Assembly: GCF_001761545.1 (NCBI RefSeq)
Contig: NZ_CP017326.1
Coordinates: 1,240,001 to 1,304,000 of the forward strand
DNA length: 64,000 nucleotides
Direction of reading: 5' to 3'
Origin: Weissella soli
Lineage (GTDB): Bacteria > Bacillota > Bacilli > Lactobacillales > Lactobacillaceae
The translations under genes were made by a program, and so were the position numbers. The notes under the pieces were generated by a model, which worked only from the letters and a program-made list of their open reading frames with translations, was not told the DNA's origin and ran no database searches. Of the stretch, positions 56,886-62,849 are shown piece by piece (position 1 is the stretch's first letter; every line of letters begins with the position of its first letter).

Positions 56886-58448
56886 TTATTTAGCGTATTC
56901 AATTGAGCGTGATTCCCGGATAACCGTGACCTTAATATGACCAGGGTAATCCAAATCATGTTCAATTTGTTCTTTGATGTCGTGAGCCAAAACTTGACTC
57001 TCCAAATCAGACACCGCGGCTGGTTCCACCATCACTCGAATCTCACGACCAGCTTGGATCGCAAACGACTTTTCAACACCATTGAAGGCATTTGCAATAC
57101 CTTCAAGTTGTTGTAGTCGTTGAACGTAATTTTCAAGTGATTCTGAACGAGCACCAGGTCGGGCAGCTGAAATTGAATCAGCCGCTGCGACCAAGACAGC
57201 GATAATTGACTCAGGTTCGACATCCCCGTGGTGAGAAGCAATTGCGTTAATGACAACTGGCTTCTCATGATACTTGGTCGTCAATTCAACGCCAAGTTCC
57301 ACGTGTGAGCCATCAACTTCATGGTCGATGGCCTTTCCAATATCGTGTAATAATCCTGCGCGCTTGGCAAGCGTAACATCTTGACCTAACTCGGCAGCCA
57401 ACATGCCAGTTAGTTTTGCAACCTCAATTGAGTGAACTAACACATTTTGACCATAACTAGTACGGTAATTCATGCGTCCAATCGTCTTAACCAAATCGGG
57501 ATGGATATTATGCAATCCCAAGTCGAAGACCGTTTGTTCACCGACTTCACGAATATGCTCGTCCATCTCCTTGCGAGCCTTATCCACCATCTCTTCAATA
57601 CGAGCTGGGTGGATACGACCATCTGCAATCAACTTCTCCAAGGCATTCTTCGCAATTTCACGACGAACCGGATCAAATCCACTCAATACGACCGCTTCGG
57701 GAGTATCATCGATGATCAGATCAATCCCCGTCACCGTTTCGATAGCCCGGATATTACGACCCTCACGACCAATGATGCGACCCTTCATGTCGTCATTTGG
57801 TAATGTTACAGTCGATACAGTCGTTTCAGCGACCATATCGGCAGCCGAACGCTGAATAGCTTGCACAACCAAATTCTTGGCGCGCTTGTCTGCTTCAGCA
57901 GCCGCTTGCTCTTCGCTCTCCTTGATCATGACAGCACGTTCCTTGACAAGAGACTCCCGCGTTTCACGCAAGATTTTCTCACGCGCATCTTCACGAGATA
58001 ACTCGGCGACTTCTACTAACTTTGCTTCACGCGCGGTTACTAATTCATCAGCCCGGTGTTCCTTATCGTGGACACTTTGTCGTTGTTGATCAAGTTTCTT
58101 TTCTTTCTCCACAATCACGTCTTCACGCTTTTGCAAAGATTCATCTTTACGATCCAGTACAGATTCACGGCTTACCAAGCGCTCTTCTTGTGTCTTGACT
58201 TCACTACGACGTTCAGCCAAATCACGTTCGAGACGATCTTGATATCGTTGGCTTTCATCACGGGCCTCAACCAGAGCAGTTTTTTTCAACTGTTCGGCAT
58301 CGATAACCGCTTGATCCGTGATATCTTGTGCTGTTTTATTTGCTAGTTGCAACGCGTTGTTAATCTTAATCTTAGCAACGGTATATCCAACCACAAATAC
58401 AATTACGATTGCGACAAGCGACAACAGGATGACCATTGCAATGTTCAT
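56886..58448 (-). CDS. rny: Ribonuclease Y
   Basis: The protein is 520 residues with an N-terminal membrane anchor (about 4-24), a long charged coiled coil (about 25-195), a KH domain ([15 protein letters not shown]) and an HD domain ([12 protein letters not shown]). It is a membrane-bound endoribonuclease that begins mRNA decay. CAGGAGATAAAG precedes the ATG. Confidence 0.97.
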
Positions 58449-58600: not shown

Positions 58601-58634
58601 AAAAAAATCGCCATTGCCAGCTCAGGCAATGACG
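58601..58634 (-). terminator. Terminator after the degenerate P-type ATPase gene
   Basis: CGTCATTGCC/GGCAATGGCG with a 6-base loop and seven T residues on the minus strand. Confidence 0.88.
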
Positions 58635-58651
58635 AAGCATTCTCATTAACT

Positions 58652-60226
58652 TTAATCTTCCGAGACAACTGCACTCAATGTTAGCGACAATACCAACCGA
58701 ATACCGACGGCAAAAATTGGGGCAATAAACAACCATGATGAAAAGAAAACACCCACACCAGCAGCTAAAATGATTAACAAGGCTGATAAAATCGTGGTAA
58801 TTGTTAACACACGGTGATCATTTTGCTGCAACAAATCGGCCGTATCCCACAATTCGTGCAACTGGGCAATGCCTGGTGCCTTAATATCTGCAAATTCTAG
58901 TGCGCCATTGACACCAACGACCATGGCATCCTCAATTTCAACTGGAACAGCTTGATTAGTGACCAATAAAGTATGATCATTCCTCAATAAACTGGCTTGG
59001 GCAGCTAATTTAGCTTCAGGCGTTAGATTAGCCTGTGGTTGAACCAGGGTACGTAATGTCTTTTGCATCTCAAACAATGAACCATTCGTGTCCGCCGTGA
59101 CAATATGCAGATTGATGTGTCGGCTGGCCAAGAAGCGATCAAACTTCAACAAGTCCGCATTGAACGTTGCCGCATAAGTCAAAATACCAATAATTTGCAC
59201 ACCATCGATGATATAACTTACTGAATTGCCTAATGCAATAAGCTGGTCTAACGTAGCTTCATTGATTTCATAATGTTCTGATGCATAACTGGCTGAAACA
59301 ATTTGGAAACGCTCGTTGTTGATGACACCACTGGCACCCACGTATGGTATCTTCTCTTGTTCACTAGCTTCACTTGGATACACATTATATTCACGCGCGT
59401 ATTGCAACAGCGCCCGAGCCATCGGCGTATCAGTACCCGCCAACAAACCAGCGGTAATGCCCAAAACATCATAATCACTATACCGATCATCAACGCTTGT
59501 GATGGAGCGAATTTTGAGGTCATCACTCGTTAACACCCCTGACTTTTCAGCCACAATGTCCGTAATTTTAGGTAAATCATCTAACGCGCGTGGGTTTTGA
59601 AATTTCAATCCCTGATCCGCTAATTGACGTAACAAGCGAAAGCGTCGGTAAGCCGACCACATCGCTGGCCAACGAGGATCGATGATAATCAACACAGAAA
59701 CCGCCACCGTCAAACCTGATTGCCAATTCAACGTGATGCCATAGAACAGAGTTGCATACACAGCAGCCACCAAAGCCACTGATTCCAAGCGCATGGCTGA
59801 TTTAATACCAGCCTCGTCTAAAGCGATCGCCCGTTCACGACGTTGCAACAGCCCTAATGAAATCATCAACCCGGCCCAGCCTAGCAACATCATTGGCAAT
59901 GTCATCGTTTTAACAAAATTACCCAACGCTGGCGTTAACAGCAACCAGGTCAAGACGACAAACCATAAGGTCTGCCCAATAATTGGTAACCATAACGTCG
60001 TCACCCCTTCTTCACGTTGTTGTGCCAAGGCCTGCCTAATCATGCCATAGTCCAACCAAATAATCAGCGCTGCTGGAATCGCTAGCATCGCTTTAGTAAG
60101 GTACGGAATATTAACGGACAAAATTGGTTGCATACCGATCAAAATCGGCAACACAACGGCAGTGAGCAAAGCCATCACAAAAGCCCCCGCTGCATAACGC
60201 AAGTATTTTAATTGTACTGTGAGCAT
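58652..60226 (-). CDS. Degenerate P-type ATPase-like membrane protein (probable pseudoenzyme)
   Basis: The protein is 524 residues, with TM helices at about 10-32, 44-60, 78-98, 108-127, 148-166, 172-182, and two near the end (476-495, 499-520). It aligns by motif with P-type ATPases, for example LKFQNPRALDDLPKITDIVAEKSGVLT against LLIQNRTALEQVDRLRYVVLDKTGTLT of the copper ATPase nearby. All catalytic signatures are altered: CPx is DPR (183-185), DKTGT is EKSGV (227-231), TGD is TAD (377-379), and GDGxND is lost near VVGVNGAL. The actuator (TGE) domain between helices 4 and 5 is absent. The start has GAAGGAG upstream. It probably cannot hydrolyse ATP; a structural or regulatory function is inference. 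Confidence 0.78.
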   Translation of the reverse strand: MLTVQLKYLRYAAGAFVMALLTAVVLPILIGMQPILSVNIPYLTKAMLAIPAALIIWLDYGMIRQALAQQREEGVTTLWLPIIGQTLWFVVLTWLLLTPALGNFVKTMTLPMMLLGWAGLMISLGLLQRRERAIALDEAGIKSAMRLESVALVAAVYATLFYGITLNWQSGLTVAVSVLIIIDPRWPAMWSAYRRFRLLRQLADQGLKFQNPRALDDLPKITDIVAEKSGVLTSDDLKIRSITSVDDRYSDYDVLGITAGLLAGTDTPMARALLQYAREYNVYPSEASEQEKIPYVGASGVINNERFQIVSASYASEHYEINEATLDQLIALGNSVSYIIDGVQIIGILTYAATFNADLLKFDRFLASRHINLHIVTADTNGSLFEMQKTLRTLVQPQANLTPEAKLAAQASLLRNDHTLLVTNQAVPVEIEDAMVVGVNGALEFADIKAPGIAQLHELWDTADLLQQNDHRVLTITTILSALLIILAAGVGVFFSSWLFIAPIFAVGIRLVLSLTLSAVVSED

Positions 60227-60325
60227 CGCGTTCTCCTTCATTCTAGCTGGTATTAACCACTCATTTTTAACTATATACCTCATAAATTACCGTGTTTAGA
60301 ACAGAAATTCAACGATATCCAAAGA

Positions 60326-60354
60326 AAAAAGCCATTTCCTTAAGAAACAGCTTG
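60326..60354 (-). terminator. Terminator after tRNA-fMet
   Basis: AAGCTGTTTC/GGAAATGGCTT (10 bp with G-U pairs) and TTTTTT on the minus strand. Confidence 0.78.
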
Positions 60355-60358
60355 AAGA

Positions 60359-60432
60359 TTGCGGGAGTAGGATTTGAACCTACGACCTTCGGGTTATGGG
60401 CCCGACGAGCTACCAGACTGCTCCATCCCGCG
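60359..60432 (-). tRNA. Initiator tRNA-fMet (anticodon CAT)
   Basis: A 74-base cloverleaf on the minus strand with the initiator features: C1 opposite A72 (unpaired top of the acceptor), three G-C pairs (GGG/CCC) in the anticodon stem, and anticodon CAT. The loop reads CCCATAA, so position 33 is C instead of the near-universal U. No CCA is encoded. It shares a transcript with tRNA-Ser. Confidence 0.93.
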
Positions 60433-60462
60433 ATAATATTAAATTACGCCTCACAGCGTATA

Positions 60463-60552
60463 AGGAGATGGTGGGATTCGAACCCACGCGCCGGTTTCCC
60501 GACCTGACGGTTTTCAAGACCGTTCCCTTCAGCCAGACTTGGGTACATCTCC
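60463..60552 (-). tRNA. tRNA-Ser (anticodon TGA)
   Basis: A 90-base class II tRNA with long variable arm. Acceptor GGAGATG/CATCTCC, anticodon loop CTTGAAA giving TGA, reads UCN codons. The base following the acceptor (discriminator) reads T, where G is usual for tRNA-Ser. No CCA is encoded. Confidence 0.93.
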
Positions 60553-60627: not shown

Positions 60628-62772
60628 TTAAACATTTTCTTTCAAGCGCAAGGTCATCGCATTCAACGCCACAATCACTGTTGAAAGTGACATGATGATT
60701 GCACCAACCATCGGACTTAAAGTAAAGCCGAATGGAATCAATAAGCCAGCTGCCAATGGAATTGCGATGACATTATAACCGGCACCCCAGGCCAAGTTTT
60801 CTTTCATCTTGCGGTTAGACTGATGTGCTAAGTCAAGCAAGGCCAGGATATCAATGGGGTTAGAGTTCACTAACACGACGTCAGCAGCATTGATCGCCAC
60901 TTCGGTTCCTGACCCAATCGCCACCCCCAGATCAGCTGTAGCTAAAGCCAATGAATCATTCACCCCATCACCAACAAACATCACTAAACCGCTCTGCTGA
61001 TATTGTTGTACCCGTGTGGCCTTATCCTCAGGCTTCAAACCGGCTTCAACGTGGGTAATTCCCAATTCAGTCGCAATTGCTTGGGCAGCTTGTTCATTAT
61101 CACCAGTCAACATCACGGGGATCAGTTGCCGCGCCTGCAAGGCTGTAATAAAGGCTGCGGCTTGCGGCTTGATTTGATCGCCTAGGGCAATGGCTCCTAA
61201 CACTTCATCAGCTTGCGTAACGAGGTAACTGACCGTGTATGGACCAGTGAGCAAGGCAACTGATTGGCCGTGCTCCTGGAGATATTGGCCACTCACAATT
61301 TTTAGTGATTGGCCGTTAATCGTTCCCTGCACCCCGACACCAGTGATACTAGCCACATTTTCCGCACTTGGAACCGGTACCTGTTGAGCTTGGGCATAAG
61401 CCATGATACTCTGACCAATTGGATGCACACTACCAGCTTCCAATGCCGCAATTTGCGCCAAAATTTCTGATTCAGGGGCATCATTATAGGCAACCACTTG
61501 TTGGACGGTGAATTTTCCTTCGGTTAACGTGCCTGTCTTATCTAGCACAACATAGCGGAGACGATCAACCTGCTCTAAGGCCGTACGATTTTGAATCAAT
61601 AGACCACGACTAGCGGCCAAACCGGTTAGCCGCGCCACGACCAAAGGAACAGCGAGTCCCAGGGCATGGGGACAGGCAATAATAAAGACGGTGACAGCAA
61701 TTGGCAACGCAAAGCTCATCCCGTTAAGCACCGTCCAAATAATCAATGCCAAAACACCAATCATCGTGGCTGCGTAAAACAACCAGCTAGCCACTTGATC
61801 AGCCAAATTTTCGACACGTGACTTATTCTTTTGTGCGACGGCAACCAGTTGCTGCACTTGTGAAACATAACCCGCATCGGCTTTTTTCGTCACCATCATG
61901 ACGAATGGTTGATTACCATTCAGCGAGCCACCAACCACATCATCCCCGGTCTTTTTCGCGACTAATGCTACTTCACCCGTCAATAATGATTCATCAATTT
62001 GGGCACTCCCCTCAACAATCATCCCATCTAGTGGGACACGTTCGTTTGCCTTGACTAGTACGCGATCATGGACCGCCAGTGTATTCGTTGGGACATCATG
62101 TACCATGTCTTGCATCTGCATGTGTGCCACATCGGGCATCAAATCACTCAAGGCATCAACCGCTGAACCTGCTCGCATGACTGCATTCATTTCGACAATA
62201 TGCCCAATGAGCATAATGATGATTAATGATGCCAGTTCCCAAAAGAAGTTCATCCCCATTTGTTCTGGGTGTAGCATCTCTTGAATCGTTACATAGACAC
62301 TATAAACATATGCCACACTGATTCCCATGGTGATTAACGTCATCATGGCTGGCTTACGTGCCGCAAGTTCACCGCGTGCTCCTTGATAAAACGGCGAACC
62401 ACTGTAGAAAAAAATAATCGATCCCAGTAACAAAATTAACCACGATTGTCCTGGCCGATCAGTCACGGTGAATGGCAGATACACCCCCATCATTGGCGTT
62501 AAAATCAACAGTGGAATTGTCAAAATGACTGCGACAATTAACTTCAACCGCATATTTCCCATATGCATCATCTGGCCACCATGGTCCATCATATCCATAT
62601 GGTCATGGCCACCATGCTGCATTTGGTGATGGTCCATCGTAGCCATTGTATCCTGTTTGTCCTGCATAGCGGCTTGCCCCATATCATGAGCTTCATTGCT
62701 CATTGAATGCATATCCATCTGATGGTCGTGCATCGTCATGGATCCATGCTGCATTTCATTATCTTTTTTCAT
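60628..62772 (-). CDS. copB: Copper/silver-exporting P-type ATPase (CopB type)
   Basis: The protein is about 715 residues. The first 75 residues are extremely His/Met-rich and bind metal instead of an HMA domain. Then come membrane helices, TGE (265-267), CPH (367-369) in TM6, phosphorylated Asp in DKTGTLT (411-417), TGDN and GDGVNDSLAL. CPH marks CopB-type Cu/Ag export. Start 62772 (MKKDNEM) has AAGAGG seven bases upstream; a GTG two codons earlier is possible. The divergent TetR gene probably controls it. Confidence 0.94.
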   Translation of the reverse strand: MKKDNEMQHGSMTMHDHQMDMHSMSNEAHDMGQAAMQDKQDTMATMDHHQMQHGGHDHMDMMDHGGQMMHMGNMRLKLIVAVILTIPLLILTPMMGVYLPFTVTDRPGQSWLILLLGSIIFFYSGSPFYQGARGELAARKPAMMTLITMGISVAYVYSVYVTIQEMLHPEQMGMNFFWELASLIIIMLIGHIVEMNAVMRAGSAVDALSDLMPDVAHMQMQDMVHDVPTNTLAVHDRVLVKANERVPLDGMIVEGSAQIDESLLTGEVALVAKKTGDDVVGGSLNGNQPFVMMVTKKADAGYVSQVQQLVAVAQKNKSRVENLADQVASWLFYAATMIGVLALIIWTVLNGMSFALPIAVTVFIIACPHALGLAVPLVVARLTGLAASRGLLIQNRTALEQVDRLRYVVLDKTGTLTEGKFTVQQVVAYNDAPESEILAQIAALEAGSVHPIGQSIMAYAQAQQVPVPSAENVASITGVGVQGTINGQSLKIVSGQYLQEHGQSVALLTGPYTVSYLVTQADEVLGAIALGDQIKPQAAAFITALQARQLIPVMLTGDNEQAAQAIATELGITHVEAGLKPEDKATRVQQYQQSGLVMFVGDGVNDSLALATADLGVAIGSGTEVAINAADVVLVNSNPIDILALLDLAHQSNRKMKENLAWGAGYNVIAIPLAAGLLIPFGFTLSPMVGAIIMSLSTVIVALNAMTLRLKENV

Positions 62773-62849
62773 ATCCACACCTCTTTACATAATATCTTAC
62801 ACTGTCTATACTAAATACCAATAAACAAAAATAGACAGAGTGTTGATTT
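62773..62849. promoter_or_regulatory. Divergent copB/tetR control region
   Basis: The 77-base spacer contains inverted half-sites TGTCTAT and ATAGACA, extended by ACAC/GTGT on the outer flanks, separated by about 21 bases. It is a likely TetR-type operator for both genes. No CopY-type TACANNTGTA box was seen. Confidence 0.55.

Follow-up and report, generated by a model that had tools for sequence, protein, structure and literature searches.

A very likely non-pumping relative of the CopB-type copper ATPases is present in all examined genomes of the genus Weissella

In almost every account, P-type ATPases figure as pumps. Their fold can also be part of a larger complex, as with KdpB in KdpFABC, which keeps the full catalytic cycle. 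In the guanylate cyclase beta of Plasmodium a degenerate P4-ATPase domain was described that has lost most of the signature residues (PMC6592433), and the high-affinity copper site of AfCopA is likely made up of CPC and M711 of helix M6 (PMC9433437). A cyclase of Toxoplasma was considered as a precedent for an Asp-to-Glu replacement and rejected, as the match concerned the cyclase domain and not the ATPase domain. No description of a family like the one reported here was found in a literature search that had most subscription journals outside its coverage, and the parts of a review of open questions on P-type ATPases (PMC10654040) reached by a term search held no passage on dead members.

The gene under study (here called the pseudo-ATPase gene, encoding a pseudo-P1B-ATPase) lies on the minus strand, like all other features given below for the window, the whole stretch of 64,000 nucleotides of Weissella soli DNA that was analysed. 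Its coding sequence (58652..60226) was delimited on the basis of the open reading frame and orthologue comparison; it encodes 524 aa (stop included in the coordinates), its start residue is that of the closest orthologue, and an alternative, longer reading from an upstream ATG yields 543 aa. An earlier sequence-only reading of this DNA had reported an intact frame of 524 codons with a good ribosome site and a strong terminator, and we found these elements as described: the ribosome binding site AAGGAG is located at 60233..60238 and the strong intrinsic terminator (11-bp stem and T7) at 58608..58635, in the interval between the gene and rny (encoding RNase Y, 56886..58448).

That the product is a homologue of P-type ATPases, as had been claimed, was borne out by several comparisons. 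NCBIfam family TIGR01525 matched the window protein at E=3.5e-21 (75.7 bits, the cut-off being 346) and matched all 28 members of the family, with the orthologues among the matches listed all scoring below the 346-bit cut-off. CopB of Archaeoglobus was found in the PDB at E=3e-9 with the single sequence (other CopB and CopA matches being no better) and at E=1.5e-21 with the family profile, and profile-profile alignment with CopB by hhalign was collinear over the full length (probability 100, E=1e-58). The single large gap in this alignment falls exactly at the actuator domain, the absence of which had been noticed before and is consistent with the lack of PF00122 in all 28 members. In the Pfam scan of these members PF00702 was lacking too and no P-type ATPase family was matched; Frag1/DRAM matches at 2.4e-7 in two of them are probably due to the membrane helices. 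AlphaFold2, run on the 28-member alignment, gave a P1B-like fold without an actuator domain (mean pLDDT 84.9), with six membrane helices ahead of the P and N domains and two behind. At the site of the missing domain and its TGE motif the model has a six-residue M2-M3 loop (aa 132-137, 59816..59833) between helices 110-131 and 138-165, and helix 168-204 is interrupted at 182-185 in the manner of the CPx kink. Among the PDB matches listed, a structure search with the model returned P-type ATPases only (Z 24.7 and rmsd 3.2 over 253 residues for the P and N domains of CopA, Z 16-20 for whole P1B pumps).

Each of the 28 genomes of Weissella, the source genus, carries exactly one full-length orthologue, and the gene is retained even in genomes of 1.3-1.4 Mb (the genus spans 1.3-2.4 Mb). 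The orthologues share 27-62% identity and none of the 28 contains an internal stop. Outside the genus no orthologue was found among 395 genomes at the level of the order and 398 at that of the phylum (~790), with no match beyond 1e-70, and the profile search shows a break between the members of the genus (E<=1e-175) and the best protein of another genus (1e-60). The non-genus matches listed are frames of full P1B size except for one of 363 aa, which may be a partial gene. A scan of plasmids for orthologues yielded solely P1B pumps, aligned over part of the query, and one locus was found in the single GTDB contig that was scanned. The small replicon of one Weissella genome (G155) bears two P1B pumps, and a segment with one of these pumps (L159, G155:C3:500-2950) matches a Weissella confusa plasmid at 98.8% identity and closely resembles tcrB carried by plasmids of Enterococcus and Leuconostoc.

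The best matches outside the genus are CopB proteins of a second genus with five genomes (g19), which we infer to be Periweissella. In a maximum-likelihood tree, the deeper nodes of which are weak, the family forms one clade (support 100) inside the CopB-type clade and near the g19 proteins. This position, together with the N-domain signatures YSDxDILxI, NNxRFA and GNSVSYLV common to both, suggests a single origin from an old CopB copy that predates the radiation of the genus. The g19 CopB proteins differ from the family in their size (710-750 aa) and their intact DKTGT, and one of them, a partly degenerate CopB paralogue of 710 aa (L010, G019:C2:107300-108361), is without CPx and TGE. It has NITNNN for TGE and LPN for CPH, with the A domain present and DKTGT, TGD and GDGxND intact; its placement as sister of the family (support 81) was set aside, as it may reflect long-branch attraction.

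The state of the motifs was read from an alignment of the 28 orthologues with 64 P1B pumps. The phosphorylated Asp of DKTGT is Glu in all 28, where EK.G.LT is invariant (EKSGVLT in the window protein, aa 227-233, 59528..59548). The first Cys of CPx is acidic throughout (Asp in 27 and Glu in one; DPRW in the window protein, aa 183-186, 59669..59680, at a predicted break of M4), and the metal-binding Met of M6 in CopA and CopB (PMC9433437) corresponds in the profile alignment with CopB to Arg510 (58697..58699), which is Arg in 27 of the 28. The Mg-binding GDGxND is found in none of the orthologues and is replaced by TNQ in 26 (aa 423-425, 58952..58960), while the His of the nucleotide-binding HP motif is absent from the N domain (aa 237-352, 59171..59518) of all 28 in the alignment. 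The TGD motif reads [TS]xD in every member (TAD in the window protein, aa 377-379, 59090..59098), with the Gly retained in six only, and Lys406 (59009..59011), the lysine of HAD motif III, is kept in 26. The earlier claim that all catalytic motifs are lost holds for the nucleophilic Asp, GDGxND, HP, TGE with the actuator domain and the metal ligands, but not for the Lys, Gly and Leu-Thr of DKTGxLT, the Thr/Ser and Asp of TGD and the motif III Lys; with both motif Lys residues (I and III) and the TGD Asp still in place, some residual chemistry is possible. An acid-base pair appears to occupy the former copper site (the positions of the CPx Cys and the M6 Met), and Asp183 and Arg510, close to each other as judged from the alignment, could pair in a salt bridge that substitutes for the metal. 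We consider it very likely that the pseudo-ATPase, to judge from its sequence, is a non-pumping paralogue of the CopB-type P1B copper ATPases.

In close pairs the pairwise dN/dS of the pseudo-ATPase gene is 0.04-0.08, across all regions, as compared to 0.03-0.04 for intact CopB in the same species pairs; judged by these ratios the gene is preserved by selection about as strongly as the working CopB. Loss of catalytic residues is thus found together with purifying selection, which supports the status of a putative pseudoenzyme. Regional conservation was compared with that of CopB over the 78 pairs formed by the same 13 species. In the pseudo-ATPase no region is as conserved as the N domain (43% mean identity versus 31-39% elsewhere), which in CopB ranks last (40% versus 58-72% elsewhere). 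Its identity is higher than the average of the remaining large regions in 77 of the 78 pairs for the pseudo-ATPase and in none for CopB, a reversal between paralogues of the same species that is clear even though the pairs are non-independent through shared ancestry. Conservation is lowest, and divergence fastest, in the membrane helices of the pseudo-ATPase. The inverted conservation is the best clue to function and speaks for a role played by the cytosolic N domain rather than for transport, although the signal could come from binding of a ligand (e.g. a nucleotide) instead of docking.

We propose, and give an even chance to the idea, that the pseudo-ATPase serves, anchored in the membrane, as a docking or regulatory module whose N domain binds a partner protein or a ligand. 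A CopB-type ancestor would have lost its actuator domain, its phosphorylated Asp would have been changed to Glu and its Mg and ATP ligands would have been lost; the metal ligands in the membrane (the CPx Cys and the M6 Met) would have been exchanged for the Asp/Arg pair, a candidate salt bridge replacing the metal. Selection would now keep the cytosolic N domain best, with the eight helices holding it at the membrane, and binding of a partner protein or ligand by this domain would constitute the docking or regulatory role.

The tRNA pair and the CopB gene that had been reported next to the pseudo-ATPase gene were recovered (the tRNAs at 60357-60552). Upstream of the gene lie a terminator-like hairpin (60329..60353), tRNA-Met(cat) (60357..60433), tRNA-Ser(tga) (60463..60552) and an intact CopB-type P1B-ATPase gene (60628..62778, 716 aa, with CPH, TGE and DKTGT present), which is a neighbour in many other species but not in every one. 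The tRNA-Ser/tRNA-Met group is found directly upstream and co-oriented in 25 species; inserted genes intervene in two (G163 and G164) and the group is inverted in one (G168). In many species the start codon comes only ~20-40 bases after the tRNA terminator. A promoter of the gene's own would hardly fit into this interval, and expression may come from read-through of the tRNA operon. In many species (L081, L095-L107) a tmRNA gene is found no more than 10 kb from the locus. Three related species carry a second actuator-less P1B relative of 444-570 aa, located immediately ahead of the tRNAs and the pseudo-ATPase gene (L102:5887-7599 in G086, L103:9913-11250 in G153 and L105:6267-7601 in G161), which keeps DKTGT (DKTET in G086), HP, TGDN and GDGxND, has a dN/dS of ~0.19 in one pair and groups in the tree with CopB of G018/G168; its AlphaFold model is poor (pLDDT 49).

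On the downstream side rny follows the pseudo-ATPase gene directly and on the same strand in 28 of 28 species, while the genes farther out vary by species, and the linkage, broken on the tRNA side in three species, is broken on the rny side in none. In the outgroup genera examined the gene ahead of rny is usually recA or another gene, which makes the linkage a feature of this genus. Such an arrangement would fit a protein that partners RNase Y at the membrane: its N domain would dock RNase Y or a factor of RNase Y and thereby tune RNA decay. This is a specific case of the docking or regulatory explanation. We offer it tentatively and judge it unlikely, since the terminator that intervenes in the window and in most species argues against a simple operon and the adjoining tRNAs are also well conserved, so that the synteny may be inertia. 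Replacement of a lost YlbF, the cofactor family of RNase Y, is unsupported: YlbF is present in 28/28 genomes, which leaves no missing cofactor to replace on that count. That the genus has reused the copper-pump fold as a non-pumping N-domain regulator, possibly of RNase Y, is in our opinion doubtful. The pseudo-ATPase could instead be a regulatory subunit that hetero-oligomerises with active P1B pumps (CopB or others), inhibiting or stabilising them. The adjoining CopB gene and the presence of at least one intact P1B-ATPase in every genome of the genus are in line with this, but we found no CPH-type CopB in G086, G153, G151 and G137, all of which retain the pseudo-ATPase gene, and the low conservation of the membrane helices is contrary to what is expected of a transmembrane heterodimer; we therefore rate such a subunit as distinctly unlikely. 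The sequence-only reading had suggested a scaffold, sensor or partner subunit; each of these may apply, but an obligate partnership with CopB is disfavoured, and the inverted conservation points to the N domain rather than to transport.

The former metal site, with its acid in 28/28 and Arg in 27/28 and with the predicted M4 break preserved, might suggest an ATP-independent protein that senses or passively conducts a cation or proton by way of the M4 acid and the M6 Arg; with the membrane domain diverging fastest and an acid-base pair that could equally well be structural, this seems quite improbable. Still less can be said for an enzyme of another kind, in which a HAD core with a Glu nucleophile, Lys and Asp would perform non-pumping catalysis: the invariant EKxGxLT and TGD Asp and the motif III Lys in 26/28 would agree with it, but the Mg-binding motif is lost in all species and we know of no Glu nucleophile in HAD phosphotransferases, and we regard it as very improbable. 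A decaying pseudogene, to which the missing catalytic motifs and the missing domain might point, is refuted by the conservation across the 28 genomes and has a probability close to nil. The earlier view that the gene is maintained, not decaying, is strongly supported by the intact orthologues, despite their divergence, by a dN/dS of ~0.05, far below 1, and by the conserved replacements, with an Asp-to-Glu change that is more uniform than could be known from one sequence and DKTGT intact in none of the 28; all structure matches listed being P-type ATPases, an unrelated membrane family did not appear among them.

If the docking or regulatory role is true, this stand-alone, genus-wide family would plainly exemplify a primary pump put to a different use, marked by the absence of the actuator domain, the uniform Asp-to-Glu replacement, Asp/Arg for the metal ligands and the constraint on the N domain. 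Automatic annotation of the protein as a heavy-metal ATPase would be wrong. With the CopB-type (P1B, CPH) copper ATPases the pseudo-ATPase shares MA-M6 and the P and N domains in collinear order, as well as the fold; it differs from CopB in lacking the actuator domain, the His-rich N terminus, CPH, the catalytic Asp, GDGxND and HP, in having Arg for the M6 Met and in the shift of constraint to the N domain. KdpB is similar in its P-type fold, and was also a structural match of the model, but its catalytic cycle is intact. The likeness to the Plasmodium cyclase is that a defunct P-type ATPase unit is kept in a protein with another function (PMC6592433); in that case, however, the unit is a domain fused to a protist cyclase, whereas the pseudo-ATPase, a bacterial P1B relative lacking the actuator domain, stands alone.
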